Below are positions 20,628 to 35,938 of a stretch of DNA of 38,352 nt, one piece after another. The DNA lies in NCBI GenBank assembly GCA_020057065.1, contig JAGVGM010000319.1, positions 1 through 38,352 of the forward strand, read 5' to 3'. Below the pieces are notes generated by a model. The model was not told the DNA's origin and made no database searches. It was given only the letters and a program-made list of their open reading frames with translations. This DNA is from Thermodesulfovibrionia bacterium. Lineage in GTDB: Bacteria > Nitrospirota > Thermodesulfovibrionia > UBA6902. Both the position numbers and the translations under genes were made by a program. The stretch's first letter is position 1. Each line of letters starts with the position of its first letter.

Positions 20628-21143
20628 TCACGCCTTGCTTAACAGCGACACCGTCAGCTTCAAGATAAATTTATTAGGGTCTTCAAATGTGGTCCTTATA
20701 GCGCTGCTCTTTACCTTCAAGGGCACAGGGGAGTTGTCAATTTTATAAAGAAGGTTGACTATACTGTTGAGGTCCGTGCCCTGTATCTCAAGTTCTGCAT
20801 CTTCCTCCATATAGTCCTTTACCTTGTTCTTCTCAAGAGGTTTTATTGCCTTTGCCTTTATGCCGAGCGAGTTGAGCATCTGTTCCAGGACCGGCACAAT
20901 ACCCCCGGTCTTGGTTAAGCCGATCTTCTTCACTTTTAAATCAACAGTACTTTTTAAAGCGGTCACTTCTCCTGTCATTGACTGCATTTCTGCAACCCGG
21001 GATTTGAGAGTCGTGTTCTGTTTCTCAAGGTTTCCGGTATAAGCAAACGCAATGATTGCCGTTAAAGCAATTACAATGATTGCAAACGACAGCGCTAACA
21101 AAGATCTGTCAAAGAACAATATTTTTTGTACCTTTTTTATCAT
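20628..21143 (-). CDS. gspM: Type II secretion system protein GspM
   Basis: Inner-membrane assembly-platform subunit that partners GspL. The 171-residue protein has a short cytoplasmic N-terminus, one membrane helix (about 15-35, LALSFAIIVIALTAIIAFAY), a coiled-coil (ENQ-rich TTLKSRVAEMQSM) and a ferredoxin-like periplasmic domain ending in SVSLLSKA. The start overlaps the gspL stop by four bases, showing coupling. Assignment rests on topology, size and order as much as on motifs. Confidence 0.85.
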   Translation of the reverse strand: MIKKVQKILFFDRSLLALSFAIIVIALTAIIAFAYTGNLEKQNTTLKSRVAEMQSMTGEVTALKSTVDLKVKKIGLTKTGGIVPVLEQMLNSLGIKAKAIKPLEKNKVKDYMEEDAELEIQGTDLNSIVNLLYKIDNSPVPLKVKSSAIRTTFEDPNKFILKLTVSLLSKA

Positions 21144-22189
21144 GCGGTCTTTTCCTGCATAATTATTGTGAAGTTGATCTTTTTGTCGACAGTTGCATCG
21201 GAATTCAGGATCTTAACGCCTTCAAAAGGGCCTGTAAGACCGTTCCTGAATGAATCCACTTCTTCAAAGGATGAAGCAGTGCCTTTTAAGATCAGATTTT
21301 TCCCGTCTGCATTAAATTCATTGAGGAGAATATTCCTGCTCTTGAGGTTTGCAATATTATTCAGGATATCGAGAAGTGGAATACCTCCGAATAATGCGCT
21401 TTTCTCCTTCAGGACGGACAGGTTGCCTTTAAACTGTCCTACGGCATCGATTATCTTTTTGTCTTCAGGGAAAACGTTTTGATAAATTGCCTGTAATTGC
21501 TGCGCAAGCGCCTGATTTTCTTTTTTCCATGCTGCAAATTTTATGACCGCATGTGCACTCAGTATCAGCATTAATATTAAAATAAGCGAAGCGGTCAGCC
21601 GGATAGTTTTTTTCATCCGCTCAATATCACCTGTATAAGAAAGTGCATCCTGTCTGAGGTTTAACAATGGGGTTATGCTCTCTCTTTTAGATGCTTCAAG
21701 TCTCAATTCTCTGCTTAGAGATGATCCTTCAATGATATTTTCACTTTTTCCCCCGGAGATGCTCAGCTCTATTGATGTGACCGCCTTTGGTTCAAGACCG
21801 GCAGATGAAAAGGTTTTTATGATCTCTCCGAGTTTTGTCTTTTCAATGCAGACCGCAAGCACCCTGCAGCCGATGTCAAAGGTCTCTGTGATGATATGAT
21901 CAATTGAATAATCGCTGACACTGCCGAGCAGTAGGCCTTCAAGTTCATAGGAAATTGTATCTTTGATCTTTAACTTGTCGGAGAAAGGGAAGGTCAGTTC
22001 CCGCAAGGTTAATAAATTGAATGGCAAGCTTACATATGTCTGCTCCAGATTTTTATTCTGAAGCGGCATCAGAGAAGATGGATCCAATTTGCCTTCAACC
22101 GGAACCGTTACAGTGTCAACGTGTTCATCCTGTTCAAAGACAAAAAGGTTGATCTCTTTCTCTGTCCAGTCTATAAAACCTGTCCTCAT
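21140..22189 (-). CDS. gspL: Type II secretion system protein GspL (PilM/PilN-like)
   Basis: Links the cytoplasmic ATPase GspE to the periplasmic pseudopilus. The first ~190 residues form an actin-like cytoplasmic domain (start MRTGFIDWTEKEINLFVF, then YVSLPFNLLTLRELTFPF). A membrane helix lies at about 196-216 (LTASLILILMLILSAHAVI), and a periplasmic PilN-like domain follows with a coiled coil and a ferredoxin-like end. Length is 349. The start codon directly follows the gspK stop. It overlaps gspM downstream. Identification is good from topology and synteny. Confidence 0.9.
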   Translation of the reverse strand: MRTGFIDWTEKEINLFVFEQDEHVDTVTVPVEGKLDPSSLMPLQNKNLEQTYVSLPFNLLTLRELTFPFSDKLKIKDTISYELEGLLLGSVSDYSIDHIITETFDIGCRVLAVCIEKTKLGEIIKTFSSAGLEPKAVTSIELSISGGKSENIIEGSSLSRELRLEASKRESITPLLNLRQDALSYTGDIERMKKTIRLTASLILILMLILSAHAVIKFAAWKKENQALAQQLQAIYQNVFPEDKKIIDAVGQFKGNLSVLKEKSALFGGIPLLDILNNIANLKSRNILLNEFNADGKNLILKGTASSFEEVDSFRNGLTGPFEGVKILNSDATVDKKINFTIIMQEKTA

Positions 22190-23086
22190 TTACTCTTCTC
22201 TCCAGGATTGTATTTTCTTAGATTTATCCACAACGCTCTCGATCACTCTTGTGATTTCGTTGACTGTTGCTTTGGTGGTGATCTTGAAATCAGAACTTGT
22301 TGTTGTTATATAGCCCAAAAGGTTTGTCCCTGGATTCCCAATTTCTACATTTGATATATCGGATGTTTTCTTGAAAGGAGTAATTTCTCTATAATCAATA
22401 ATACGTTTTGCAAGGGTTTCTGTCATGTTTTTAAAGCTTACAAGCACAGGCAATTTTGCTGTGTTGATATTAATGAATATAATATCAGACCTGCCATATA
22501 CAGTTATATATGGACGAATTATTTCAAAAGTCTTTTTGTCGAATCCAGGTACAAGTTTAAGTTCATCTATGCTCTGGAGAAACATATTTTTTGCATTGTT
22601 TTCCGAATCAGTAAGTCCCTCTCTCGGCTCGCTGTCAGAGTCTATCCAGTCCGCAATTACAAGAGCAAGTTTAGGGTTAATGTTAAGGTATTCAAAAAGC
22701 TTTTGCAAGTTGGTTAAAGGATTTTGAGTAGATGTACCCTTATTTAAAATACTGTTAATATTAAACTTTGCATTCTCGTCTTCAATCATAATTATGAGAT
22801 GAGTGTTTGACCCAAGATCCCTTTCAACAGAAAACTCGACCTCACTTTGTGTGTTATAAGTTTTATTGAGTTCTATAATGTATTTAGAGCTTAGCGTTTG
22901 GCCTGATTTGGCGATAAAAGATGCCTTCTGCGCATTAGTCCAGTTGGACAAGGCAGCAGTGTCTATATAAACCTCGTATGCAAACTCGACCACAAGCGCT
23001 ACGAGTATCGTTACGATCAGCACAGTAATGATAATGGCTGAGCCGTTCTGTCCTCTGTCCCCTGTCTTCTGTTCTCTGTCTTTCAC
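22190..23086 (-). CDS. gspK: Type II secretion minor pseudopilin GspK
   Basis: Largest minor pseudopilin, caps the pseudopilus tip with GspI and GspJ. The GTG start overlaps the gspJ stop by one base (TAGTG). The leader (KDREQKTGDRGQNG) is encoded by five ACAGNNN heptamers at 23045-23079. Cleavage is predicted after Gly15 (NG/SAIIITVLIV), followed by the hydrophobic helix. The body shows the GspK-typical helix-hairpin-helix and metal-binding loops: DWIDSDSEPREGLTDSENNAKN, ELKLVPGFDKKTFEIIRPYITVYG, NINTAKLPVLVSF. Length is 298 residues. Position +5 lacks the Glu of other pseudopilins, as is normal for GspK. Confidence 0.93.
   Translation of the reverse strand: MKDREQKTGDRGQNGSAIIITVLIVTILVALVVEFAYEVYIDTAALSNWTNAQKASFIAKSGQTLSSKYIIELNKTYNTQSEVEFSVERDLGSNTHLIIMIEDENAKFNINSILNKGTSTQNPLTNLQKLFEYLNINPKLALVIADWIDSDSEPREGLTDSENNAKNMFLQSIDELKLVPGFDKKTFEIIRPYITVYGRSDIIFININTAKLPVLVSFKNMTETLAKRIIDYREITPFKKTSDISNVEIGNPGTNLLGYITTTSSDFKITTKATVNEITRVIESVVDKSKKIQSWREE
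23045..23079 (-). repeat. Heptanucleotide repeat encoding the GspK leader (ACAGNNN, five units)
   Basis: On the coding strand: ACAGAGA, ACAGAAG, ACAGGGG, ACAGAGG, ACAGAAC, exactly in register. They code for the charged leader between the start codon and the predicted prepilin-peptidase site. Gain or loss of one unit would shift the frame. Confidence 0.85.
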
Positions 23087-23724
23087 TACTTTTTCCTTAA
23101 CTGCGGTCTTGCGTATTCCGTAAGCTTTACCTTTTTCCCGTTATCATCAAACTCAATGCTTACTCTCACAATATCCGGCAACCTGCCCGTGTTCGCACTA
23201 TTCCATGTCTTTACCCATTGATTATTGGAGAAGGTCTCAACGCTAAAGCCGTCTATCGCTTCAATAGTTTCCATAGGGTACTCTTTAGATTGAATACCTG
23301 CAGGAGATTCTTTTTTTAATAAATTAAGTTTTCCGTCTTTTTCTTCTACATAATATGAAATTGTATTTAGTCCGCTGCCCTTAAAAGTGAATGCCGTGAG
23401 ATTCAGCTCAGATGTGCTTTTACCCATTATATCCCTGTCCTTGATCACAAAAGCTGTTTTATCCTCAGTTTTTTTAATGGCACCCGGACTTTTAGGCAAA
23501 GCGCTTTCTATCTCCCTGCGTATAATGTCAAGGGCTGTTCTGGCTTCATGATATTTCAGCGACACATTCTCAAAGCGTTCCAGCACGCTGTGGACAGAAA
23601 AGAATGAACTGTAGACAGCGCCGAGAACTATGGTCAGGAGGGTGAGGCTGATGAGGATCTCGATGAGGGTGAAACCCTTAGATTTGAAATTTGAAATTTG
23701 AAATTTGAAATTTAGAATTTTCAT
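23086..23724 (-). CDS. gspJ: Type II secretion minor pseudopilin GspJ
   Basis: Minor pseudopilin of the pseudopilus tip complex. The leader KILNFKFQISNFKSKG ends at the cleavage site G/FTLIEILISL, with Glu at +5, then the usual hydrophobic helix and LGAVYSSFFS. The globular part has RTALDIIRREIESALP, matching GspJ. The leader is coded by four perfect AAATTTC heptamers (23683-23710). The start lies 6 bases after the gspI stop. Length is 212. The C-terminus overlaps gspK by one base. Confidence 0.93.
   Translation of the reverse strand: MKILNFKFQISNFKSKGFTLIEILISLTLLTIVLGAVYSSFFSVHSVLERFENVSLKYHEARTALDIIRREIESALPKSPGAIKKTEDKTAFVIKDRDIMGKSTSELNLTAFTFKGSGLNTISYYVEEKDGKLNLLKKESPAGIQSKEYPMETIEAIDGFSVETFSNNQWVKTWNSANTGRLPDIVRVSIEFDDNGKKVKLTEYARPQLRKK
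23683..23710 (-). repeat. Heptanucleotide repeat encoding the GspJ leader (TTTGAAA/AAATTTC, four units)
   Basis: Four identical 7-base units inside the gspJ coding region, 14 bases after the ATG. Because 21 bases make three units and seven codons, the peptide reads KFQISNF periodically. It is the same motif as the array in gspI. Confidence 0.9.
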
Positions 23725-23730
23725 CTACGG

Positions 23731-24099
23731 CTATTGAACTCCCATTCTAACGATTTCATTAAGAACCACCTCTTTTCCCTGTCCCTTAACGACTGTTTTC
23801 AGCTCGACCATGGCGGGGTCGTCCGTAGGGGATACAATGGTCTCATATGTAAGATCGGTACCGTCGATAGCGCCTTTGGAATTAACCGGGTTGGTTTCGA
23901 TGCCGGTCATTTTTTCCTTTGCCAATTGGACCATATGAGTTGTAATGATATTTTCGTATGAAACTTTGGAATGATAATTGACCGTGTGGAGTACCGTTAC
24001 AAGAGTTAAACCAATGATCGCAAGGGCGATCATGATCTCGAGCAGGGTGAAGCCCTTCTTTGAAATTTGAAATTTGAAATTTGAAATTTTATAGAACAT
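23731..24099 (-). CDS. gspI: Type II secretion minor pseudopilin GspI
   Basis: Minor pseudopilin that starts tip assembly with GspJ and GspK. Cleavage motif KKG/FTLLEIMIAL with Glu+5, then AIIGLTLVTVLHTV and the GspI-like LAKEKMTGIE. I favour the ATG at 24099 (122 residues, overlapping gspH by 11 bases, GAGGG close upstream); the longer frame from an ATG at 24126 adds nine residues and has no ribosome site. The leader YKISNFKFQISKKG is coded by four heptamers. The gene ends 6 bases before gspJ. Confidence 0.92.
   Translation of the reverse strand: MFYKISNFKFQISKKGFTLLEIMIALAIIGLTLVTVLHTVNYHSKVSYENIITTHMVQLAKEKMTGIETNPVNSKGAIDGTDLTYETIVSPTDDPAMVELKTVVKGQGKEVVLNEIVRMGVQ
24059..24086 (-). repeat. 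Heptanucleotide repeat encoding the GspI leader (TTTGAAA/AAATTTC, four units)
   Basis: Four identical 7-base units between the gspI start codon and the prepilin-peptidase site. It matches the gspJ array, so recombination between the two (376 bases apart) is conceivable. Confidence 0.9.
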
Positions 24100-24601
24100 A
24101 TCCCTCGAGGATTTTTGTCCTTCCATTTAAATGATTAAAAATGACGGTATATTCATATTTATTTTTTATCAGATGTACTGTTACGGGTTCTTCAGGGCCG
24201 AGGGGCCCGAACTCGATAGCAACCTCTCCTCCGGTGATTTCGCCATGTGAAGGAATTATTATGTCTTTGAACATAACCTCTTTCCCCATCTGAAAAGAAC
24301 GGGATTCCTTTTCGCTCTCAAAGGTGTAGGAATTGTTATCAAGATTGAATTTAACGGTATAGATCAGTTTTTTGCCGGCGGCTTCATCGTATATATATCT
24401 CAATGTGCTGCTTATGCGCCTCGCTTCAGACTTTAAGGCCCTCTCTCCCTTATCCCAAAAAGACGGCATTACCAACGCTGTGGTAAGAGAGATAATGAAA
24501 ATGACGATAACAAGCTCTACAAGGGTAAAAGCTTTTCTACTCGTAACTCGTAACTCGCAACTCGTAACTTGTTTACACGTCCCAGTTCGATATATCTGCA
24601 T
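24089..24601 (-). CDS. gspH: Type II secretion minor pseudopilin GspH
   Basis: Minor pseudopilin. Cleavage motif RKA/FTLVELVIVIFII, with Ala rather than Gly at -1 and Glu at +5, then PSFWDKGERALKSEARRISSTLRYIYDEA typical of GspH/FimT. I chose the ATG at 24601, which lies inside the end of gspG (29-base overlap) and gives 170 residues; an upstream frame reaching 24691 would overlap gspG by over 100 bases. The leader includes VTSCELRVTSR, coded by GTTACGA-type heptamers. The Ala(-1) is unusual but tolerated in some prepilins. Confidence 0.88.
   Translation of the reverse strand: MQIYRTGTCKQVTSCELRVTSRKAFTLVELVIVIFIISLTTALVMPSFWDKGERALKSEARRISSTLRYIYDEAAGKKLIYTVKFNLDNNSYTFESEKESRSFQMGKEVMFKDIIIPSHGEITGGEVAIEFGPLGPEEPVTVHLIKNKYEYTVIFNHLNGRTKILEGYVL
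24539..24573 (-). repeat. Heptanucleotide repeat encoding the GspH leader (ACTCGTA, four units plus one degenerate)
   Basis: Units on the + strand: ACTCGTA, ACTCGTA, ACTCGCA, ACTCGTA, ACTTGTT. The array's far edge coincides with the last base of the gspG stop codon and its near edge with the codons just before the GspH cleavage site. The motif is unrelated to the gspI, gspJ and gspK arrays although the period is the same. Confidence 0.85.
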
Positions 24602-25010
24602 CGTATCCTTCTCCGCCGGGCTGCCCGTCGGCTCCGTAAGTGATAATATCATAATCGCCTTTGGATCCCGGAGATATATAAATATATTCATTTCCCCATG
24701 GATCCTCAGGAATATTTCTCTTCTCCAGATATCCTCCGGACCTGTAGTGTTCAGGGACCTGGCCTGTAACCGGCGGTGAGATCAATGAACCGAGTCCCTG
24801 TTCAGTGGAGGGATAAAATCCATTGTCCGCTTTGAACAGCCTGAGCGCTGTCTCAAGATTTTTCATCTGGACTTTTGCGTCCATCACCTTTGCGTCATCC
24901 AGCCTGCTGATAAGACGCGGCGCAATGAGCGCTGCAAGAATTCCGATGATGATCAGGACCACCATGAGTTCGATAAGGGTGAACCCCCTCTGTTTACTAT
25001 ATTCTTTCAT
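24573..25010 (-). CDS. gspG: Type II secretion major pseudopilin GspG
   Basis: Main building block of the T2SS pseudopilus. Short leader KEYSKQRG then /FTLIELMVVLIIIGILAALI, with Glu+5. The globular domain carries the major-pseudopilin calcium-site loop: ALRLFKADNGFYPSTEQGLGSL, EDPWGNEYIY and the end loop DGQPGGEGYDADISNW. Length 145 is typical. The start has AAGGATAT upstream. Unlike H, I, J and K, its leader contains no heptamer repeat. It is first in the G-to-N half of the locus and divergent from corA. Confidence 0.97.
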   Translation of the reverse strand: MKEYSKQRGFTLIELMVVLIIIGILAALIAPRLISRLDDAKVMDAKVQMKNLETALRLFKADNGFYPSTEQGLGSLISPPVTGQVPEHYRSGGYLEKRNIPEDPWGNEYIYISPGSKGDYDIITYGADGQPGGEGYDADISNWDV

Positions 25011-25054
25011 TCTATATCCTTTTTAATAAGATTGAATTAAACCGGGTGATTTTC

Positions 25055-25083
25055 TTGATACTTTGTGACTCTTAGTCTAAAAT
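25055..25083 (+). promoter_or_regulatory. Sigma70-type promoter for corA
   Basis: TTGATA (25055-25060) and TAAAAT (25078-25083) are separated by 17 bases, predicting a start near 25090 and a 5' leader of about 38 bases. The start codon has no strong ribosome site. Confidence 0.65.
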
Positions 25084-25127
25084 ACCCACAAACGGATTAT
25101 CAACTTAAACCTTTCGATGATTGAACA

Positions 25128-26192
25128 ATGTCAGAACTAATTACAAAACGGTCCAGAAAGAGCGGGCTTCCACCCGGAACGCTTGTTCATATAGGCAGGA
25201 AAAAAGCCGGAAAGACGAAAATCACGGTCCTGGATTATGATGAGACTAATTTTCAGGAAAAGGAAATTGAGAAAATAGATGAATGTATTCAATTCAGGGA
25301 CCGGCCGACCGTAACCTGGATAAATGTGGACAGTGTTCATCAGCCTGAGGTCCTTGAAAATATCGGGAAATGTTTTGCATTTCATACGCTTGTGCTTGAG
25401 GATATACTGGACACTGATCAGCGGCCTAAGATAGAGGATTATAACGAGTACCTGTATATCGTATTGAAGATGCTCTATTACAATGAAAAAATGAGTGAGA
25501 TAACTACCGAGCAGATAAGTCTTATTGTGGGACCCAATTATGTGATCTCTTTTCAGGAGGGTATAGAAGGGGATGTTTTCACACATCTGAGGGAGCTGAT
25601 CAGGAATGACAAGAGCCGCATCAGAAAAATGGGGGCTGATTATCTTGCTTATTCCTTAATTGACGCAATAGTTGATAATTATTTTACGATCCTTGAGAAG
25701 ATCGGGGACAATATCGAACTCCTTGAAGAAAAACTTGTTGAAAATCCGACAACTAATGTAATGCATGAGATACATATGCTTAAAAGGGAGATGATCTTTT
25801 TAAGGAAGGCAGTTTGGCCTCTGAGAGAAGTCATCAGCGGTATGGAGAGGGGCCATGCACTCATACAGGACTCCACCCGTATATTCCTGCGGGATGTTTA
25901 CGACCATACAATTCAGGTTATCGACACTGTTGAAATATACCGTGATATGGTCTCGGGAATGCTGGACCTCTATCTTTCGAGCATAAGCAACAGGCTGAAT
26001 GCGGTTATGAAAGTTCTGACGATAATTACGACTATTTTTATGCCGTTGACATTTATTGCCGGTATATATGGAATGAATTTTAAATACATGCCGGAACTTG
26101 AATGGCGGTTAGGTTACCCGGTGATCTTGATTGTTATGCTTGCTATCAGTGTTATGATGCTGTTCTTTTTCAGAAAGAAGAAATGGTTGTAG
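25128..26192 (+). CDS. corA: CorA-family magnesium/cobalt transport protein
   Basis: Inner-membrane pentameric divalent-cation channel (Mg2+, Co2+, possibly Ni2+). The 354-residue protein has the large cytoplasmic N-terminal domain (VTWINVDSVHQPEVLENIG, LEDILDTDQRPKIEDYNEYLYIVLKML), a long helix, then two C-terminal membrane segments. The family signature Y-G-M-N-F lies between them, followed by the acidic periplasmic loop MPELEW, and the tail is FFRKKKWL. It is on the strand opposite to the T2SS genes and splits that locus between gspF/DUF1361 and gspG. It converges with DUF1361, with 14 bases between the stops. Its own promoter is visible. Confidence 0.96.
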   Translation: MSELITKRSRKSGLPPGTLVHIGRKKAGKTKITVLDYDETNFQEKEIEKIDECIQFRDRPTVTWINVDSVHQPEVLENIGKCFAFHTLVLEDILDTDQRPKIEDYNEYLYIVLKMLYYNEKMSEITTEQISLIVGPNYVISFQEGIEGDVFTHLRELIRNDKSRIRKMGADYLAYSLIDAIVDNYFTILEKIGDNIELLEEKLVENPTTNVMHEIHMLKREMIFLRKAVWPLREVISGMERGHALIQDSTRIFLRDVYDHTIQVIDTVEIYRDMVSGMLDLYLSSISNRLNAVMKVLTIITTIFMPLTFIAGIYGMNFKYMPELEWRLGYPVILIVMLAISVMMLFFFRKKKWL

Positions 26193-26206
26193 CAGCCGCT
26201 AAATGA

Positions 26207-26890
26207 TTACTCTGTCTTTCTATTCGGGAACATAAAAAAGATGACACATAAGTATGCAAGGATAAAGAAAAGACTGAATAATATTATCATGCTGTAGATC
26301 CCCGGATAAAGATGCGGGTTGAGGACAATATTATTGATCTCGGTTAACAGAGTTTGAGGTTCAGTAAAAAGGTGCCAGCTATTGTAACGTAAATATCTTC
26401 CGAGGTAGACGCCGAAGCTGCTCAGTATTATGGCGATCATTACAAATAACCAGCCCCATATCCTGCCGAGATTATTTTCCAGCATAATATGAAACATCCT
26501 TAAGGAAGCAAATCCGAGTATCAACCCTGTCCACGCGAATGAAAATAACATGAGGATATCTATCCAGGATGGAACGCCATAGACAAATCTAAAGTGTTTT
26601 ATATCGGTAATTATATATGGAGCGTTCGGATAGAACAGCAGCCATAACAAGACCAGCAGCACATAAAAACTTTTCCTGCAGTGATCCCTGAAGTTCTGGT
26701 AGATCAGGATGGAAAAACAGTATGGTATTATTGCCAGCAATAAATTCCATAACATATAGTCATAATCAAAATTGCCGGAGACCTGGATGCGGTAAAAAAG
26801 AATTCCAATACAGAACAGTATGGAAAGTATCAGTACCAGACTCTGCTGAAGAAAAGGAACTCTGTATATGATTTTTTTTATATTCGACAT
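26207..26890 (-). CDS. DUF1361 integral membrane protein
   Basis: A 227-residue protein with about seven hydrophobic helices. The hallmark of the DUF1361 family, LLFYPNAPYIITDIKHFR, is seen around residues 84-101, together with GRYLRYNSWH near 165. The function of the family is not known. It follows gspF by 30 bases on the same strand, so it is probably transcribed with gspC-F, but nothing ties it to secretion. It separates gspF from the gspG-N group. Confidence 0.88.
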   Translation of the reverse strand: MSNIKKIIYRVPFLQQSLVLILSILFCIGILFYRIQVSGNFDYDYMLWNLLLAIIPYCFSILIYQNFRDHCRKSFYVLLVLLWLLFYPNAPYIITDIKHFRFVYGVPSWIDILMLFSFAWTGLILGFASLRMFHIMLENNLGRIWGWLFVMIAIILSSFGVYLGRYLRYNSWHLFTEPQTLLTEINNIVLNPHLYPGIYSMIILFSLFFILAYLCVIFFMFPNRKTE

Positions 26891-26920
26891 TTTATTCCAA
26901 GTAAAAACAGGTTTGTCAGC

Positions 26921-28093
26921 TTAATGCATTATCTGATTCAGCTCAAATATCGGGAGGAGGACCGCGACAACGATGAAGCCGACGATCAACCCCATTACCA
27001 ATATGAGACTTGGCTCAAGGATACCTATAGCGCCCTGAAGTTTTCTTCCAAACTCCGCCTCATAAGATTCAGAGGTCCTTATTAAAACCTCTGCAAGTCT
27101 CCCTGTCTGTTCTCCTGTTGAGATTATCTGTAAAAGGGTCGGCGGAAAGCCTTCGAGGCTTGATGACAGCCTGGCCCCCTGTGAGACCAGGGTCTGGGCG
27201 GACATTATTCTATTTTCCAATACAACATTGCCGGTTGCCTTTGAAGTAAGCTGCATTGATTTCAGGATAGGCAGTCCTCCTGCAAGGAGAAAGCCCATTG
27301 TCATACTGAAACGCAGCATATAAAGACCCATGAGAATGCCTGTCGGGTCTTTAAGGAGAATACTGTCGATCATTTCCTTTTTGTTCTTCCTGACCCATCT
27401 GAATAACATAACAACGCCCGCAGTCATTAAAAGCAGGAGCCACCAAAAATTTTTAAACACGTTACTGGTCCAGATGAGGACCACTGTTATAAAAGGCAGT
27501 GAGGCTGATGTATCTTCGAATATCTTTGTTATCTTGGGGATGACAAAGGTGAATAGAAATACCAGTATCAGTATGCTCACAGACGCCATAAAGATTGGAT
27601 ATATAAGCGCGGTCTTGACCTTGCTTTTAATACTGCTCTCATTTTCAAGAAAGTCAGCGAGTTTCAAAAGTACCTCAGTTAACTTGCCGCTGCTTTCCCC
27701 TGCCGCTATCATGCCCGTATAAAAATCAGGGAAGATGTCGGGATAGGCCTGCATGGCGCGCGCAAGGGATGCGCCGGCGGACAGACTCTCTTTCAGGTCT
27801 ATGAGTATATTCTTCCAGTTGTCTTTTTGCTCTGATGATAAGGCGCCAATGGATTCTGTAAGGGGGACCCCGGAGGCCAATAAGGTCGAAAGCCTTCTTG
27901 TGATGCTTGCGAGAATTAGCGGGGATAATTTACTCGACAATAATGTCTGCTTTGTTATGGCGCCGGAAATCTCCTTTGGAAAGATGCCCTTTGATTTTAT
28001 CTTTACAGCGGCGTCTTTTTGACTGTCGGCTTCGATAACCCCCCCGGTCTCAAGTCCTTCGCTGTTATATCCACGATATTTGAAGATCGGCAT
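26921..28093 (-). CDS. gspF: Type II secretion inner-membrane platform protein GspF
   Basis: Polytopic centre of the T2SS assembly platform, contacting GspE and GspL and feeding pseudopilins into the growing pseudopilus. The 390-residue protein starts MPIFKYRGYNSEGLE and has the two homologous T2SSF repeats: LSTLLASGVPLTESI...GMIAAGESSGKL, and FLLAGGLPILKSM...ISTGEQTGRL. Three hydrophobic segments lie at about 166-190, 215-235 and 362-384. The tail reads LPIFELNQIMH, a typical end. It is separated from gspE by a 68-base spacer full of heptamer repeats. Confidence 0.96.
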   Translation of the reverse strand: MPIFKYRGYNSEGLETGGVIEADSQKDAAVKIKSKGIFPKEISGAITKQTLLSSKLSPLILASITRRLSTLLASGVPLTESIGALSSEQKDNWKNILIDLKESLSAGASLARAMQAYPDIFPDFYTGMIAAGESSGKLTEVLLKLADFLENESSIKSKVKTALIYPIFMASVSILILVFLFTFVIPKITKIFEDTSASLPFITVVLIWTSNVFKNFWWLLLLMTAGVVMLFRWVRKNKKEMIDSILLKDPTGILMGLYMLRFSMTMGFLLAGGLPILKSMQLTSKATGNVVLENRIMSAQTLVSQGARLSSSLEGFPPTLLQIISTGEQTGRLAEVLIRTSESYEAEFGRKLQGAIGILEPSLILVMGLIVGFIVVAVLLPIFELNQIMH

Positions 28094-28102
28094 AATTTTA
28101 GC

Positions 28103-28162
28103 TTTCAGCGGTCAGCTTTCAGCTCTCAGCTAACTGACTGCTGATAGCTGACCTCTGACTGC
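28103..28162. repeat. Inverted heptanucleotide arrays between gspE and gspF
   Basis: Units on the + strand: TTTCAGC, GGTCAGC, TTTCAGC, TCTCAGC, then a TAAC spacer, then TGACTGC, TGATAGC, TGACCTC, TGACTGC. Two four-unit arrays at a strict 7-base period, roughly inverse in motif (TCAGC against GCTGA/TGACTGC). They extend from the gspE stop codon almost to the gspF start, so the spacer is essentially only repeat. Confidence 0.8.
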
Positions 28163-29685
28163 TAAACATCACTGTCCTTCTGTGTTACCCTTAGAACTTC
28201 TTCTATTGTTGTAATACCGTTTATGATCTTTTCAACTGCATTTCTCTGCAGAGTCTTAAATCCTGATCTGACAGCCGCGGCCCTTATGGCCTGCGCATCT
28301 TTTCTTTCCGAGATCATGGTCCTCACCTCAGGCGTGATCTCGAGAAATTCATATATACCGGTCCTGCCGAGATAGCCCTTGCCGAGGCATTTTTCACAGC
28401 CTTTGCCGCGATATAGATGGGTCGGAAGCGGATCAACTCCGAGATAGTCTGTTTCCAGTTTGGACGGTGTATATGATTCCCTGCAGTGAGGACAGACCAC
28501 CCTGACCAACCTTTGGGCCAGAACGCATACGAGTGATGACGCCACAAGGAACGGCTCTATTCCCATATCTATCAATCTCGTTAAAGCGCTCGGCGCATCG
28601 TTTGTATGCAGGGTGCTGAGCACCAGATGTCCTGTCAGTGATGCGTGGATCGCTATCTCTGCTGTCTCGAAGTCTCTTATTTCCCCTACCATCATTATGT
28701 CGGGGTCCTGTCTCAATATGGACCTGAGTCCTGCTGCAAAGGTCAAACCTATTTTGGGATTTATCTGCATTTGCCCGATGCCGCTGAGCTGGTACTCGAC
28801 CGGGTCTTCAACTGTAATGATATTTCTCTCTTCCGTATTAAGTCTGAGGAGAGCGGCATAAAGGGTTGTGGTCTTGCCGGAGCCTGTAGGCCCTGTTACA
28901 AGGATAATTCCGTTTTGTCTGCAGAGGGAGTCTTTGAAGGCAGATAATATATCATCCGAAAGTCCGAGTATCTCGAGACTTAAAACACCCGAGCGCCTGT
29001 CAAGCAGCCTGAGGACTGCTCTTTCACCGAGAGCAGTCGGTATTATGGAAACCCTGATGTCAATGTCTTTGCCGCCTATAAGAAGTTTTATGCGCCCGTC
29101 CTGCGGGAGTCTTTTTTCCGCAATGTCGAGAGAGGAGAGTATCTTTATCCTTGATATTAGGGCCTCCTGAATTACTTTCGGGGGGCTCAGCACTTTTCGT
29201 AAAATGCCATCTACCCTGAATCTTACATCAAGTCCTTTTTCGTATGGTTCAACATGTATATCGCTTGCCTTTTCCTTTACAGCTTCCATTAACAGGGCAT
29301 TAAGTAAACGTATAATAGGCGCCTCTTCAGTAAGCTCGAGCAGGTCCCTGGGTGATTCAAATTCCGTTGCTATCATGGAAAGGTCTTCACCCTTAATGTC
29401 GCCCATAACTTCATCGACCCTGCTGGTCCGGCTGTAGATGCGGTTGATGGCGTCAATGATCACCTTTTGCTCTGCCATGACAGGATGTGGTTTCAGGTCC
29501 AGGCTTCTTGCCAGGTCCCTTAGCGCAAAGATACCGCGGTTGTCACAAACAGCGGCTATAAGCTCCTCATTGTGACGTCTCAGGGGCAGCAGGACATTGC
29601 CTTTTACAAAGGAGAGAGGGAGGCTCTGCAGGAGTGAGAATTCTATTTCTTCGTCTTTGATAGTATCAATCTTATCATTTTGCAT
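28162..29685 (-). CDS. gspE: Type II secretion ATPase GspE
   Basis: Hexameric cytoplasmic ATPase that powers pseudopilus assembly. The 507-residue protein has the N-terminal GspE domain, ASDIHVEPYEKGLDVRFRVDG (about 140-160), Walker A GPTGSGKT at 265-272, Asp box and Walker B (MMVGEIRDFETAEIA), the His box TGHLVLSTLHTNDA, and the zinc-binding tetracysteine loop CPHC...CEKC. The start overlaps the gspD end by 11 bases. All catalytic parts are intact. Confidence 0.97.
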   Translation of the reverse strand: MQNDKIDTIKDEEIEFSLLQSLPLSFVKGNVLLPLRRHNEELIAAVCDNRGIFALRDLARSLDLKPHPVMAEQKVIIDAINRIYSRTSRVDEVMGDIKGEDLSMIATEFESPRDLLELTEEAPIIRLLNALLMEAVKEKASDIHVEPYEKGLDVRFRVDGILRKVLSPPKVIQEALISRIKILSSLDIAEKRLPQDGRIKLLIGGKDIDIRVSIIPTALGERAVLRLLDRRSGVLSLEILGLSDDILSAFKDSLCRQNGIILVTGPTGSGKTTTLYAALLRLNTEERNIITVEDPVEYQLSGIGQMQINPKIGLTFAAGLRSILRQDPDIMMVGEIRDFETAEIAIHASLTGHLVLSTLHTNDAPSALTRLIDMGIEPFLVASSLVCVLAQRLVRVVCPHCRESYTPSKLETDYLGVDPLPTHLYRGKGCEKCLGKGYLGRTGIYEFLEITPEVRTMISERKDAQAIRAAAVRSGFKTLQRNAVEKIINGITTIEEVLRVTQKDSDV

Positions 29686-31597
29686 TTTGTATTTTGACTG
29701 TATAATTCGGCTCTGCGTAAAGGACCTCGGGAAGTGATGAAAATTCCTGAACAGCGGCTTCTACTTCCTGTTCAGGCTTAAGAATAATATGATAAGCATT
29801 TATTCCTTCCAGGTATTTTTTTACCGAGGCCCCCTTTTGTGCTATGATTTCGAGGGCCTTTTCTTTTGAAATATCGTCTTTGAATTTCACAATGATCTCG
29901 TCAGGCGTATAAAGTTTTTCCCTTTTAGAAAATTCCTGGTGTTTCTCTTCTGTTATCTTTGAAAGTTCATCTGATTCTTTTATGATATGCGGTGAAAGGA
30001 AGACGAGGAGATTTGTCTTGTTTTTTGAAATGCTCTTGGACTTAAAGAACCATCCCATAATCGGGATGTCTCCTAAAAACGGCATCTTTGAAACACTTTC
30101 CTCATCCTTTTCCTGCATCAGGCCGCCGATTACAACAGTGCGTCCGTCTTTTACAACAACAGAAGTTTTAGTTGAGCGTTTGGTTGTTGTAGGACCTACT
30201 GACGTAATAATGCTTTCAGTGGCGTCTTTGAGATCTGATATCTCCTGATATATATCAAGCTTTACATAATCTCCCTCTGTTATCTGGGGTGTAAGCCTGA
30301 GAGTAATACCAACATCCTTTCTTTCTATTGAACTTAATATCGTATTGGCAGAGGCTGCATCGCGCTCTCTTTTTGATATGAAGGGCACATTTTCACCAAC
30401 TATTATCTCAGCCTCTTTATTGTCAGATGTAAGGATCTGCGGTGTTGAGAGGATATTCACTGTGTCTTTGAAATCATTCAGGCTGAAAAGCGCTGCAAAG
30501 CCCGGAGCTGTGAGGTTCGATTTGGAAATGGTTCCGCTGGAACTAATTGATGTAACAGGGATATCAAGGAAATTACCCATTCCGCCTACTGAAAATCCTG
30601 TAAGGCCGTTAATAACGGAAAGCAGTGTATCTGTGCCTACGTTCCCGAATCCCCCGATTGCAACAGGTTCACCATTATGTCTTACTGAAGCCCTCCATTT
30701 CGCACCGAGTTCTTTAAGTTTATCTATCGAAGCCTCAATGATCATGGCCTCAACAAATACCTGCTTTCTCCTCCTGTCAAGGGTCTTGATGACCTGGACA
30801 ATATTTTCATATTCAGACGGCGGGGCTACTATGATAAGGGAGTTAGTTGTTTTGTCGGGTGTGATGCTGAGCGTCTGGGCGGCTTCGGGCTTTTGCTTGT
30901 CACGCTGTGCTTTATAAACGGCCTGCATGTTCTTGAGTATTCCCTCGAGGACTTTTGCAAGGTCTGTTGCGTCTGCATTCTCAAGAAAGTAAACATTTAT
31001 CTTTGTCTGTTCTTCCTGCGCCGAGGGCTGGTCTATTAATTTAAGGATAGAAATTATTTTTTCAATATTGACGGCAGAATCAACAACGAGCAGCAGATTG
31101 CCCGGGCCGAAGGCCGATATATGCCCGTCTTTTGAGACAACAGAACGGAGGAACTGTACAGCATCATCCGCTTTTATATGCCGGGTAGGTATAAGTTTTG
31201 TTATGTATGCTTCATTGACCAAGACCTTCTCATCTGTAGATATCCTTCCCTCTTCTTTCGCCTGGGAGGAAAGGATTACCTTATAGGTTTTGGGCCCTGA
31301 CTCGATAATGGTGTAGCCTTTAAGGTTAAGTACGGAAGTAAAGAGAGAGAAGGAATCATCAATAGATAGTTTTGCAGGGGCTATTATGGTGATCTTTCCT
31401 TTGATCCTTTCGTCAAAAATAAAGTTGATCCCGCTTATTTCACTTATAAATTTGATAACAGTGGGTATTTCGACGTCAACGAAATTGAAGGCTATGTTAC
31501 CGCTTGATCTCTTATCTTCAGAAAAGGAGAGGGAAGGGGTAAATGAAACAACTAAAGAGAGCAGGGAAATGAGACAGAATATTTTAAAAGTTTTCAT
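29675..31597 (-). CDS. gspD: Type II secretion secretin GspD with C-terminal propeptide-like domain
   Basis: Outer-membrane secretin through which folded substrates leave. Signal peptide at 1-26. Periplasmic N0 domain (IAFNFVDVEIPTVIKFISEI) and N1-N3 domains reach to about residue 300. The secretin core holds ILTSDNKEAEIIVGENVPF, the gate region, and VVIGGLMQEKDEESVSKMPF...GDIPIMGWFF, ending LVFLSPHII at about 545. Beyond this, residues 564-640 form an extra domain starting TPDEIIVKFKDDISKEKA and ending LPEVLYAEPNYTV. It resembles the N-terminal propeptide (inhibitor I9/fervidolysin-like) of subtilases and stands where other secretins have the pilotin-binding S domain. GspD is certain; the domain match is by recognition only. 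Confidence 0.96.
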   Translation of the reverse strand: MKTFKIFCLISLLSLVVSFTPSLSFSEDKRSSGNIAFNFVDVEIPTVIKFISEISGINFIFDERIKGKITIIAPAKLSIDDSFSLFTSVLNLKGYTIIESGPKTYKVILSSQAKEEGRISTDEKVLVNEAYITKLIPTRHIKADDAVQFLRSVVSKDGHISAFGPGNLLLVVDSAVNIEKIISILKLIDQPSAQEEQTKINVYFLENADATDLAKVLEGILKNMQAVYKAQRDKQKPEAAQTLSITPDKTTNSLIIVAPPSEYENIVQVIKTLDRRRKQVFVEAMIIEASIDKLKELGAKWRASVRHNGEPVAIGGFGNVGTDTLLSVINGLTGFSVGGMGNFLDIPVTSISSSGTISKSNLTAPGFAALFSLNDFKDTVNILSTPQILTSDNKEAEIIVGENVPFISKRERDAASANTILSSIERKDVGITLRLTPQITEGDYVKLDIYQEISDLKDATESIITSVGPTTTKRSTKTSVVVKDGRTVVIGGLMQEKDEESVSKMPFLGDIPIMGWFFKSKSISKNKTNLLVFLSPHIIKESDELSKITEEKHQEFSKREKLYTPDEIIVKFKDDISKEKALEIIAQKGASVKKYLEGINAYHIILKPEQEVEAAVQEFSSLPEVLYAEPNYTVKIQNAK

Positions 31598-31691: not shown

Positions 31692-32582
31692 CTACCTTAT
31701 CCTGTAATTCATGGAGATATTTTGACCGCTTCTTATTACATCAAGGTCGATGTTGCTCATGCCCTTCAATGCAGACATGGCCTGTATCGCAACTTCAGGG
31801 TTAGAGATCTCAAGTCCGTTTATTCTTAATAATATGTCACCGTTCCTCAATCCGAGACTATGATAGATCCCTCCAGGGACGACTTCACTGACTGAAAAAC
31901 CTTCCTGCCTGCCGTCCTTTATATTGGGTAAAAGCCTTGCGTGAGTGAGTATCTGCTCGGGATTTTCAAGAGCCTTTTGTATCCTACGGCTGTCGAGAAT
32001 ATATTCCCTTTCACCTATCTGCTTCGCAAAAGACGGCTGCGTGGTTTCCTTGCTTTGCCCCTGAGGGATTTCGGGATTCAGGGCAGCTTCAGGCATTGTA
32101 ACTGTGTAATTTGCAGAGTCACGCTCTATTTCGACTGAAGATCTTTCTATCTTTTTCAGCCTGCCGTAATTGAAGACATTCTCTCCAAGCCTGATAATTT
32201 CCTGCCGGCCCTGTGCTTGTGTCCGATCCTCAAATATCGCGTAATTGAGGTTGTTTGAACCAAATGCGGTCCCAACGAGGATAAGGTCTGAAAGGGAAAA
32301 AGCAGGGGTTTCTTTTTCCTCTGACTGTGCCACAGTTAAAGGGCGGAGCGTCATTGGAGGGCCGAATGGATTTTTTTCAAGTACAGAAGAATATTGTATG
32401 AGATTTTTCTTGTCCGTGACAGGCTGACGCGATGCTTTATCTTTTGAAACTGCGGCCGGCAGATCTTTTTTTAACAGGTTAAAACTGATGATATCCCGGA
32501 TAAGGAGGAGAACAGCGATTAATATGACGGCAGACAGGAAATAATTAATAAGGCGGAGTTTTCCCGTAGAAAATTCAAGCAT
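31692..32582 (-). CDS. gspC: Type II secretion inner-membrane protein GspC
   Basis: Connects the inner-membrane platform with the secretin and contributes to substrate choice. The 296-residue protein has a short N-terminus, one membrane helix at about 12-34 (INYFLSAVILIAVLLLIRD), a linker, the homology region (NPFGPPMTL to LGENVFNYGRLKKIERSSVEI, about 70-160) that binds GspD N0, and a C-terminal PDZ domain (about 225-290: VVPGGIYHSLGLRNGDILLRING). First gene of the gspC-D-E-F run. No ribosome site is apparent; the promoter-like boxes lie very near the ATG. Confidence 0.94.
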   Translation of the reverse strand: MLEFSTGKLRLINYFLSAVILIAVLLLIRDIISFNLLKKDLPAAVSKDKASRQPVTDKKNLIQYSSVLEKNPFGPPMTLRPLTVAQSEEKETPAFSLSDLILVGTAFGSNNLNYAIFEDRTQAQGRQEIIRLGENVFNYGRLKKIERSSVEIERDSANYTVTMPEAALNPEIPQGQSKETTQPSFAKQIGEREYILDSRRIQKALENPEQILTHARLLPNIKDGRQEGFSVSEVVPGGIYHSLGLRNGDILLRINGLEISNPEVAIQAMSALKGMSNIDLDVIRSGQNISMNYRIR

Positions 32583-32664: not shown

Positions 32665-32769
32665 CCTCATATAACTTCATCTGAAGACGGCGAAGATGCG
32701 GTCCTTTTACTTAAGCCTGTCGAGTCGCAAGCGCTTTTAATAAAAATAAGAGAGATATTGGATAAGTAA
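32665..32769 (+). pseudogene. Remnant of a response-regulator receiver domain
   Basis: An open stretch ending in TAA at 32767-32769 translates to a piece ending EDGEDAVLLLKP then VESQALLIKIREILDK. The Lys-Pro followed by a helix of this kind is the standard end of CheY-like receiver domains (the beta5-Lys-Pro-alpha5 unit). There is no start codon and the frame is closed just upstream, so only about 30 codons remain. It sits directly before a sensor-kinase operon, which suggests loss of a cognate receiver. The rest of 32583-32914 shows no other gene. Confidence 0.55.
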
Positions 32770-32978: not shown

Positions 32979-33920
32979 ATGCAGAGAAAAATCATTTTGT
33001 TTATTCTTATCGCGTTCGGACTCATCGCAAATGCCGGGTGCGAGAAGAAAGAGAAACCTATAATGATCAGCCTTGAGAAAAAAGAAGTATTAAAGGAAAA
33101 AACCAAACCGAGCTACAGCAATTCAATGCGTATAGCAGTCGGAGGAATGATTACACCTAAAGAAGGTTTTATCTACTACAAGAATTTACTGGAGTATATT
33201 GAAGAAAAGACAGCAAAAAAAATTGATTTTGTTGACAGGGAAAGCTACGAAGATATTTACAATCTTCTAAAAATCGGTGAGATCGACGCCGCTTTTATCT
33301 GCAGCGGCCCTTACGTAGATGGTAAAAAGGACTACGGGCTGGAACTCATTGCAACACCTCAAGCGTATGGAGACACCGTCTACTATTCGTATTTTATTGT
33401 TGCAAAGGATAGCCTCATAAAAAGTTTCGATGAGCTGCGCGGGAAAACCTTTGCATTTACCGATCCCCTGTCAAACACCGGGACCCTGGTGCCTAAGTAT
33501 ATATTGTCAAAGATGAACGAGACTCCCGATTCGTTCTTTAAAAGCTATATCTTCGCGCAATCCCATGACAAGGCCATCCAGGCTGTAGTTCAGAGAATCG
33601 TTGACGGAGCAGCAGTGGACAGCCTCGTATGGGAATATCTTAACCGCACAAATCCGGACTTGACAACAAAGACACGAGTTATCATGAAATCACCTCCATA
33701 TGGAATTCCTCCTGTCGTAGTCAGACCCGGTCTTGATCCGGAGACAAAGAAGCAGCTGCAGCACGTCCTGCTCACAGCCCATGAGGATGAAAAAGGGAAG
33801 AAAATCCTGAGTAATATGATGATAGACAGATTTGTTGTAATTGATGACCGCGCCTATGATTCCATACGAAAAATGAAGGCCTGGGTGGCAGAATATAATA
33901 AGAAAGGAAAGAGCAAATAA
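32979..33920 (+). CDS. PhnD-like periplasmic substrate-binding lipoprotein
   Basis: A 313-residue phosphate/phosphite/phosphonate-type binding protein (PhnD/SsuA/transferrin fold). The leader ends in the lipobox N-A-G-C (Cys21). The mature part starts with a short linker, then SMRIAVGGMITPKEGFIYY, LLEYIEEKTAKKIDFVDRESYEDIYNLL, EIDAAFICSGPYV, DELRGKTFAFTDPLSNTG and VDSLVWEYL, all in the order of this family. No permease follows; instead its stop overlaps the start of a sensor kinase by one base (TAATG). It therefore probably acts as the ligand-sensing partner of that kinase-like protein. The ligand is unknown. Confidence 0.9.
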   Translation: MQRKIILFILIAFGLIANAGCEKKEKPIMISLEKKEVLKEKTKPSYSNSMRIAVGGMITPKEGFIYYKNLLEYIEEKTAKKIDFVDRESYEDIYNLLKIGEIDAAFICSGPYVDGKKDYGLELIATPQAYGDTVYYSYFIVAKDSLIKSFDELRGKTFAFTDPLSNTGTLVPKYILSKMNETPDSFFKSYIFAQSHDKAIQAVVQRIVDGAAVDSLVWEYLNRTNPDLTTKTRVIMKSPPYGIPPVVVRPGLDPETKKQLQHVLLTAHEDEKGKKILSNMMIDRFVVIDDRAYDSIRKMKAWVAEYNKKGKSK

Positions 33921-35758
33921 TGTGGTTTAGAAAAATGACATTGAAAACAAAAATCCTCCTGGGCTCTCTTTGTATAGTCCTTATCATGGGTATAGCGATC
34001 ACCGGCTTTATAATAACCTCGGTCCGGCCTAAACTCCTTTCCAAGCTTCAGAAAAAGGGGATATATATTGCACAAAACATAGCTGTACAATCTATCACCC
34101 CGATCCTGACTGAAAAAATTTTTGAACTAACTATGATGATCAATGAACAAAAGAAACAGGCAGAAGACATCGAGTACATATTCATACTTGACAGAAGTGG
34201 CGCCGTGTTGGCCCATTCATTTGGCGAAAGATTCCCGGTACAACTGAAAGATATAAATCACATCACGGCTGGAACACCGTACAGAACTTATTATTTAAAT
34301 ACTGAAAAGGGGAAGATCACCCATATTGTCATCCCTTTAATTAATGGTAAGGCCGGCTCACTGCATCTCGGCCTTTCGCAAAAATCCATCCAGCAGGATC
34401 TCAGCGATATTTTGATGACACTTGTATTGTTCATCTTTGGGGTGCTAATTGCAGGGATCGTTATATCATTCATATTTGCTCGATTCACTGCAAAACCGCT
34501 ATCTGACGTTACATCAGTGCTCAGGAAAGCAGGCAGTAGAAATCTGTACCAGAAGCTTAATGTCAGCACTAATGATGAGATAGGTGAGATAGGACGCGCC
34601 TTCAACAACATGATAGATTTGCTCACGGCAGCAGAGGAGGCGCTGCAATTCTCGAAGGCCCTTCAAACAGCTCAACAGGAAACATCACCCGATGGGTTAC
34701 TTGTGGTTGATGAAAAAGGAAAAATATTTTCTTTCAACCAGCGGTTCGCTGATATGTGGGGAATCCCGGACGAAGTTTTGAAATCAAGCTCTGAAGAACA
34801 GGTCTTGCAGTACATGTCAAAAAGAATAGTTCACTCTGAGGAGTTTCTAAAACGGGTACAGTATCTTAATAAGCACCATCAAAAGAAATACTCTGAAGAG
34901 ATCGCCCTGGTCGAGGGAGTCACCTTTAACCGCTATTCTGTCCCGATCTTTGGAGCAGATGACAGATACTATGGCAGGGTCTGGCGTTCCCACGATATCA
35001 CCAAACTGAAACAACTTCAGGAACAGCTCCTGCAGGCGCAAAAAATAGAAGCCGTAGGAAAGCTTTCTGCTGGAATAGCTTATGACTTCAACAACCTCCT
35101 GGCTACAATTATCGGCTATGCTCATATTACCCTTATGAAATTAGGAACCTATGATCCGATATTGCCCAATATTGAACAGATAATTAAAGCTGCAAACAGG
35201 GCTGCCGAACTCACAAATGGTTTAATTGCATTCAGCAAGAAGCAGACTATGGATATGAAAACAATAGACCTGAACAAGGTCATAAACAAGGTTGGAATAC
35301 TGCTTAATAAGCTGATCGGCGGGAATATAGAACAGATAACAGAAACTGCAAATGGGGAGTTAACCGTCCTTGCTGACTGCGGACAAATAGAGCGTGTACT
35401 TATGAACCTTGCAATAAATGCACAGTACGCCATGCCCGAGGGCGGGAAATTGATCATCAGGACTGAAAAAATTGAAATTGACGCTGAATACATAAGGACA
35501 CATGGCTTTGGAGAACCAGGGATATACGCTGTCATTTCTGTAACAGATACCGGCGCCGGCATGGACAAGAATAAGATAGACAGGATTTTCGAGCCATTCC
35601 CTGCGACAAACGAAGTTGGCAAGGAAATAGAGCCCGGCCTTGCCGTGGTGTACGGCATAATAAAGCAGCATAACGGATATATCAATGTCTACAGTGAGAC
35701 GGAGAAGGGAACCACATTCAAGATATACCTCCCATTGATAAGAGTTACATCCCTTTAA
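33920..35758 (+). CDS. Sensor histidine kinase-like protein lacking the phospho-acceptor His (probable pseudokinase)
   Basis: A 612-residue membrane sensor. Membrane helices lie at about 12-35 and 163-190 around a periplasmic sensor region. HAMP follows (about 190-245), then PAS (about 255-375), a HisKA-like helix and a HATPase domain (about 480-608). The HisKA motif normally reads G-I-A-H-D-F-N-N-L; here it is GIAYDFNNLL, so the phospho-acceptor is Tyr388 (codon TAT, one base from CAT). In the ATPase domain the N box is NLAINAQYAM (Tyr where Asp is usual), DTGAGMD (G1) and FEPF are kept, but the G2 box, normally GTGLGL, reads KEIEPGLAV (567-575). Autophosphorylation therefore looks impossible. 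The gene is coupled to the binding protein upstream. It could be a signalling pseudokinase or an early pseudogene. Confidence 0.9.
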   Translation: MWFRKMTLKTKILLGSLCIVLIMGIAITGFIITSVRPKLLSKLQKKGIYIAQNIAVQSITPILTEKIFELTMMINEQKKQAEDIEYIFILDRSGAVLAHSFGERFPVQLKDINHITAGTPYRTYYLNTEKGKITHIVIPLINGKAGSLHLGLSQKSIQQDLSDILMTLVLFIFGVLIAGIVISFIFARFTAKPLSDVTSVLRKAGSRNLYQKLNVSTNDEIGEIGRAFNNMIDLLTAAEEALQFSKALQTAQQETSPDGLLVVDEKGKIFSFNQRFADMWGIPDEVLKSSSEEQVLQYMSKRIVHSEEFLKRVQYLNKHHQKKYSEEIALVEGVTFNRYSVPIFGADDRYYGRVWRSHDITKLKQLQEQLLQAQKIEAVGKLSAGIAYDFNNLLATIIGYAHITLMKLGTYDPILPNIEQIIKAANRAAELTNGLIAFSKKQTMDMKTIDLNKVINKVGILLNKLIGGNIEQITETANGELTVLADCGQIERVLMNLAINAQYAMPEGGKLIIRTEKIEIDAEYIRTHGFGEPGIYAVISVTDTGAGMDKNKIDRIFEPFPATNEVGKEIEPGLAVVYGIIKQHNGYINVYSETEKGTTFKIYLPLIRVTSL

Positions 35759-35938
35759 AAAGTTCAAAAAGTGAAGTGAAAGATAATAAACCTTGCTTGA
35801 TATCCACCGGAAAAACATAAACAAGTTTTCTGAAGAAGATACAGACTTTTTGTTTAAAACCTATAAAGTCCAAACAGCTTTTTGAGAAAAAGATGAGGGG
35901 GGGGAGATACAAAGCTATTAATTCATAATGTCCGTGTT

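Follow-up and report, generated by a model that had tools for sequence, protein, structure and literature searches.

A catalytically degenerate histidine kinase with tyrosine at the acceptor site, co-encoded with an ArrX/AioX-type oxyanion receptor in Thermodesulfovibrionia

A 38,352-nucleotide stretch of Thermodesulfovibrionia DNA, hereafter the window, encodes a histidine kinase homologue in which the phospho-acceptor histidine is replaced by tyrosine and the ATP lid is degenerate. To judge from these lesions, it is very unlikely to have kinase activity. The tyrosine and a broken lid recur in the only full-length orthologue found, and both genes are open and constrained by selection. The protein is therefore called a pseudokinase here; it probably signals by another route and is not junk. 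It has a somewhat better than even chance of being a kinase-dead, receptor-gated regulator that acts in trans through its DHp domain. Sequence shows the anatomy of the gene, the lesions in common, how selection acts, to which family the receptor belongs and how the two halves discussed below are related, and the conclusions on the pseudokinase rest on two sequences, both from metagenome-assembled genomes, with 6% contamination in the bin that holds the window. The features are listed in Table 1.

Table 1. Coordinates of the cassette and of the adjoining receiver remnant in the window.
Feature	Position	Strand	Evidence or remark
Receiver (REC) remnant SEDGEDAVLLLKPVESQALLIKIREILDK*, hybrid-kinase receiver tail, middle absent	32680..32769	+	92% over 25 aa to L032 REC
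ArrX/AioX-type periplasmic oxyanion-binding lipoprotein, 313 aa, lipobox Cys21	32979..33920	+	Pfam Phosphonate-bd 1.3e-61
Predicted pseudo-histidine kinase, 612 aa	33920..35758	+	First base is last base of receptor stop codon
sCache_3_2 periplasmic sensor domain, residues 40-165	34037..34414	+	Pfam 3.8e-11
HAMP domain, residues 186-235	34475..34624	+	Pfam 4.6e-10
PAS domain core, residues 254-302	34679..34825	+	Pfam PAS_8 2.4e-6, PAS 9.6e-6
DHp domain, residues 368-447	35021..35260	+	HisKA match; omega 0.108
Tyr388 codon TAT, phospho-acceptor site	35081..35083	+	Motif GIAYDFNNLL; common to L034
Asn392, H+4 position, retained	35093..35095	+	Alignment; phosphatase role from PMC3510030
N box LMNLAINAQYAM: N496 and N500 intact, D503 to Tyr	35399..35434	+	Compared with close homologues
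G1 box DTGAGM, intact	35546..35563	+	Compared with close homologues
F box/ATP lid/G2, residues 560-574, degenerate: FPATNEVGKEIEPGL	35597..35641	+	Conserved-column comparison, AF2

The receptor belongs, by sequence, to the ArrX/AioX-type oxyanion sensor subfamily, and it may bind an arsenic oxyanion. The initial annotation had called it PhnD-like, and the NCBIfam PhnD model does match it, far under its cut-off. When compared with PDB structures, however, the receptor is much closer to ArrX (2.9e-56) and AioX (1e-40) than to PhnD (7e-12). Moreover, alignment to the residues that PMC5908839 gives for the AioX pocket shows that the pocket is kept, with Y90, C108, Y135, S165, T167, H196 and D214 at the corresponding positions. 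C108 is the counterpart of AioX Cys106, and PhnD has no such cysteine. An identity as the PhnD transport protein was rejected on these grounds. The orthologous receptor is 79% identical, with serine in place of T167, and in both species the receptor gene overlaps the pseudokinase gene by one base.

The pseudokinase frame begins with ATG and runs for 612 codons with no internal stop, and the domain order is sCache-HAMP-PAS-HisKA-HATPase_c. The sCache_3_2, HAMP, PAS and HATPase_c matches all lie above their Pfam cut-offs, while HisKA is slightly under its own (24.2 versus 26.9 bits). The protein stops at residue 612, right behind the CA domain, and has no C-terminal receiver. In the AF2 model (mean pLDDT 84.7), the DHp and CA folds are kept and the PAS fold reaches about residue 360, and confidence is below 50 at residues 562-564 in the ATP lid. 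Foldseek searches with this model return ordinary kinases, including CckA and ZraS.

Several claims of the initial annotation are upheld by the sequence, namely the open 612-codon frame, the tyrosine at the acceptor site and the broken G2 box, which reads KEIEPGL at 35621-35641. All 25 close intact homologues have the acceptor histidine, FF[TS]T and G[TS]GLGL, so these lesions are not due to chance. An additional lesion, missing from that annotation, lies in the F box, which reads FEPFPATN where intact kinases have FEPFFTTK. The annotation had also counted an N-box tyrosine as a catalytic lesion. The tyrosine is indeed there (NAQYAM versus NARDAM), but it occupies the Asp position, away from the catalytic Asn, and the orthologue still has NARDAM. 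Both N-box asparagines, the G1 residues D543, G545 and G547, and D389 are retained. Among the features of an active HisKA kinase, the H-box histidine and the F box/lid/G2 region are thus absent, and the N-box Asn and G1 are present. At 65 near-invariant kinase-domain columns, the pseudokinase departs 17 times and the orthologue 13 times, compared with 0-6 departures in each intact homologue. The departures cluster at residues 561-573, in the F box and ATP lid, with 7 of 10 columns affected versus 10 of 55 elsewhere in the pseudokinase (Fisher p=0.002) and 7 of 10 versus 6 of 55 in the orthologue (p=0.0002), this block having been selected post hoc, after inspection of the data. For catalytic residues chosen in advance, the departures show no significant concentration (p=1.0 and 0.52), and the enrichment belongs to the contiguous lid block only.

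Searches for orthologues covered the genus (10 genomes), the class (230), the phylum (346) and a GTDB-wide contig collection, the last scanned with exact peptide patterns that distant orthologues may escape. The sole full-length orthologue found (L034, on G009:C88) is from the same genus and is 63% identical. Its frame is open and its motifs are GIAYDFKNLL and KERGQSL, so that Tyr388 and the broken lid are common to the two proteins, and D503Y is private to the window species. A sequencing error behind Tyr388 was rejected because a second, separately assembled genome has it too. Similarly, tyrosine is not a frequent H-box polymorphism of the phylum, since the DNA pattern for GIAYDF[NK]N is found in 2 of 346 genomes, which are those of the pseudokinase pair, and in none of the 344 others. 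In the phylogenetic tree, the pair forms one clade (100/98) within the intact CckA-like hybrid kinases, with L032 from a third species (G006) as its sister (97/87). The transmitter is 63% identical to L032, which is itself an intact CckA-like hybrid kinase. The surroundings of the receptor-pseudokinase pair differ between the two species, the window cassette lying at a type II secretion (T2SS) locus and that of G009 at a mutS2 locus.

Codon comparisons indicate that catalysis is relaxed, yet the pseudokinase is under constraint against decay, as the initial annotation had proposed. Between the two pseudokinases, omega is 0.18 for the sensor, 0.22 for both HAMP and PAS, 0.11 for DHp, which is the most constrained part, and 0.26 for CA; for the receptor it is 0.067. 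These values are approximate because dS is 0.9-1.8, and neutrality is rejected for the receptor and for every pseudokinase domain. Both frames have stayed open through about 1.2 synonymous substitutions per site, and neutral drift simulated at 0.1 substitutions per site produced a mean of 5 in-frame stops, with 0 of 200 runs free of stops. A set of 16 reciprocal-best intact-kinase pairs between the same two genomes served as a control for identity. The CA identity of the pseudokinase pair (0.54) is the lowest, against 0.62-0.87 in these controls, while the DHp identity (0.76) is inside the control range of 0.72-0.95. The ratio of CA to DHp identity was rejected as proof of a relaxed CA domain, as intact pairs such as L212/L172 show an equal ratio. 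A simple pseudogene is disfavoured by the lesions in common, the open frames and the omega values. The intact-His orthologues and frameshifted sister copies that the initial annotation had named as the mark of a decaying gene were not found for the pseudokinase in the genomes searched, and stops, frameshifts and neutral omega are absent from it in both species.

Alignment of the DNA upstream of both cassettes revealed remnants of a receiver. The copy in G009 is frameshifted and without a clean start, and that of the window is reduced to a tail, its middle seemingly lost between two similar short stretches (GEDAV/DEDAV). Both are nearest to the receiver of L032, with identities of 70% for the G009 copy and 92% for the window tail. 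The two halves of the G009 copy have omega values of 0.18 and 0.31, and so its break is probably recent. In G006, L032 adjoins a methyltransferase-like gene and mutS2, and in G009 the receiver, receptor and pseudokinase all adjoin mutS2. The mutS2 locus of the window genome (C291) retains the upstream flank (77% identical in nucleotides), to which an intact 137-aa free-standing receiver (L226, G000:C291, 990-1403) is attached. G006 has the whole hybrid kinase at this place, and at C291 the transmitter-coding stretch of about 1.8 kb is absent. Omega between the C291 receiver and the REC of the G006 hybrid is 0.23. Among the genus hits, this is the only intact free-standing receiver near L032; the others lie in kinase-length frames, save for a 44% match in a 150-aa frame (G009 C86). 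Because the transmitter and the receiver are both closest to L032 and C291 is without a transmitter, a single hybrid kinase appears to have come apart into the dead transmitter and the free receiver, and the C291 receiver could be a partner of the pseudokinase. Past the pseudokinase end, in another frame, the sequence YIPLKSSKSEVKDNKPC at 35746-35796 faintly resembles the pre-receiver linker of L032 (E 2.4) and is possibly a trace of the lost junction.

In the mechanism favoured here, the kinase inactivity, ligand, docking, target and direction of effect are inferred. The lipoprotein would bind a periplasmic oxyanion, whether arsenate, arsenite or phosphate, and would dock onto its membrane partner from the same gene pair, at the sCache domain. 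From there the signal would pass through HAMP and PAS to the dimeric DHp domain without autophosphorylation, which is precluded in this scheme because the acceptor histidine is tyrosine and the ATP lid is gone. The DHp domain is proposed to act in trans, its target being the relay to which related CckA-like hybrid kinases belong, and the protein would have been kept because this domain still binds partners. By origin, the protein would be the transmitter portion of a hybrid kinase, split from a receiver portion that stayed behind. The DHp domain might bind or dephosphorylate a receiver, the H+4 Asn being present, or it might pair with and control an active kinase, like RetS, or like DivL for CckA. 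The initial label of a non-phosphorelay unit is tentative, since the pseudokinase may still take phosphate off a receiver or govern a different kinase. Two observations count against the favoured mechanism: D389, which is required for kinase activity alone, is also retained, and the CA omega of 0.26 represents more constraint than a passive relic needs. The retention of N392 does not discriminate, because all close homologues keep it, and the receiver, being broken in G009, is not a required partner there. The next two explanations are specific forms of this mechanism, and the likelihoods assigned to them overlap with its own.

A phosphatase-only sensor, whose DHp domain strips phosphate from the receiver of another hybrid or from the C291 receiver under the gating of the oxyanion receptor, is a possible but somewhat unlikely form. 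The H+4 Asn is needed for phosphatase activity in CrdS, HK853 and others, and in CrdS the histidine is dispensable, with the H371A protein retaining phosphatase activity and shortening the half-life of CrdA~P from 53.5 to 2.6 min (PMC3510030). Furthermore, the DHp domains of EnvZ and NtrB alone suffice for this activity (PMC3510030). Both pseudokinases have kept the H+4 Asn while the neighbouring, otherwise invariant Asn391 is lysine in L034, and the window genome encodes an intact free-standing receiver from this lineage. However, DivL, the precedent for tyrosine, is without phosphatase activity (PMC4211667). D389 is retained although phosphatase activity can do without it, and the receiver is broken in G009.

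DivL of Caulobacter is a well-studied pseudo-histidine kinase with tyrosine at the acceptor site. The pseudokinase resembles it in having a HisKA-type DHp domain with this tyrosine, a PAS domain ahead of the transmitter, a conserved CA fold and a CckA-like lineage context. DivL binds ATP weakly and has neither kinase nor phosphatase activity; instead it exerts its effect through CckA and binds DivK~P (PMC4211667). An allosteric partner of this kind, or of the RetS kind, would dock on or pair with an active CckA-like hybrid and shift its activity with no chemistry of its own. The well-conserved DHp dimerisation region and the five intact relatives in the same genome (45-56% identity) are consistent with it, as is the CckA-like character of the transmitter (5idj, 4e-42). 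Nonetheless, such a role is unlikely on balance, since the DHp identity to these relatives may be too low for heterodimers and DivL is not a close homologue (4q20, 1.7e-4), so that homology with it was rejected. In contrast to DivL, the pseudokinase also carries a receptor-coupled sCache-HAMP sensor and a destroyed ATP lid, and for it a partnership of the DivK or CckA kind is hypothetical. RetS affects GacS in Pseudomonas by pairing as well as by dephosphorylation (PMC12189002), and its regulation of another kinase as a kinase-like protein is a possible mode here. The pseudokinase has a different sensor and no attached receiver, and its partner is predicted only.

A related proposal, held to be doubtful, is that a hybrid kinase was split, its receiver becoming free-standing and its transmitter, joined to the oxyanion receptor and minus histidine and lid, now reading or erasing the phosphorylation of a receiver. 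The transmitter belongs to the CckA-like hybrid group (NCBIfam CckA model 9.5e-78, far under its cut-off), but differs from its members in lacking an attached receiver, the acceptor histidine and the ATP lid and in having other input domains. If the proposal is true, evolution would have arrived by convergence at an arrangement like DivL-DivK, in the form of a split hybrid with a receptor-gated DHp domain whose signal comes from an oxyanion in the environment.

Slow decay, in which loss of kinase function in the common ancestor would have left a vanishing protein with only recent or residual constraint still visible, is improbable. It would agree with the low CA identity, the lineage-specific lid changes in each protein, the additional D503Y in the window species, the broken neighbouring receiver and the occurrence of the gene in only 2 of 10 genus genomes. 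The open frames at this divergence, the rejection of neutrality in each domain, the stops that neutral simulation always yields and the low omega of the receptor gene argue against it. Finally, a tyrosine autokinase that places the phosphate on Tyr388 is extremely improbable: the pair does conserve this residue and retains N500 and the residues of the adenine pocket, but the F box, lid Lys and GxGxG are gone from both proteins, in different ways, and DivL demonstrably lacks kinase activity (PMC4211667).

The favoured regulator would thus represent an independently evolved tyrosine pseudo-histidine kinase whose origin can be traced through an intact hybrid, a free receiver, a broken receiver and a dead transmitter in related genomes. 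Its receptor ligand can be guessed, and it offers a case in which to ask how a histidine kinase serves the cell once kinase function is gone. As in AioXSR and ArrX systems, the gene for a receptor of this subfamily, with the pocket Cys, precedes that for a membrane sensor kinase (PMC5908839). Unlike in those systems, no response regulator gene follows the window pair and the kinase is predicted to be dead. The window genes scanned include none for arsenic metabolism.

Related receptors lead operons throughout the genus and family. In five cases in genus genomes (L104, L105, L106, L107 and L109), the ArrX/AioX-like receptor gene lies directly before that of an sCache-HAMP-GAF-GGDEF-type protein, apparently wiring an oxyanion receptor to c-di-GMP synthesis. 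Most others are followed by histidine kinases, and one is followed by a HisKA_2 kinase. Receptors of this type sit above differing outputs, which include synthesis of c-di-GMP, kinases that are active and one that is dead. Two receptor-linked kinases are encoded in the window genome itself, so active-looking relatives coexist with the pseudokinase. One, on C224, has GVAHEINNP and GTGLGL but no Cache domain, and the other, on C7, has sCache and GTGLGL, its receptor being truncated by the contig end. In G187, an intact kinase whose sensor-HAMP-PAS layout is related carries a receiver but lacks an adjacent receptor gene. There are also related sCache-HAMP sensors whose output is HD-GYP or GGDEF and beside which no receptor was found; one of these (L116, 2271-4634, reverse strand) adds PAS and GAF domains and an HD-GYP-like HD_5/HD output.

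Around the cassette, no tandem repeats were found, and a scan of the window for sigma-54 promoters gave nothing beyond chance. A sigma-70-like site at 32915-32943 matches 11 of 12 positions and is only suggestive as a promoter, the scan total being no higher than in shuffled sequence. On the reverse strand, 21140-31597 and 31692-32582 hold the type II secretion genes C, D, E, F, G, K and L, with CorA-like and DUF1361 genes intervening. Further upstream, 16280-19027 encodes a Type ISP-like restriction-modification protein of 915 aa with N6_Mtase and Type_ISP_C domains.
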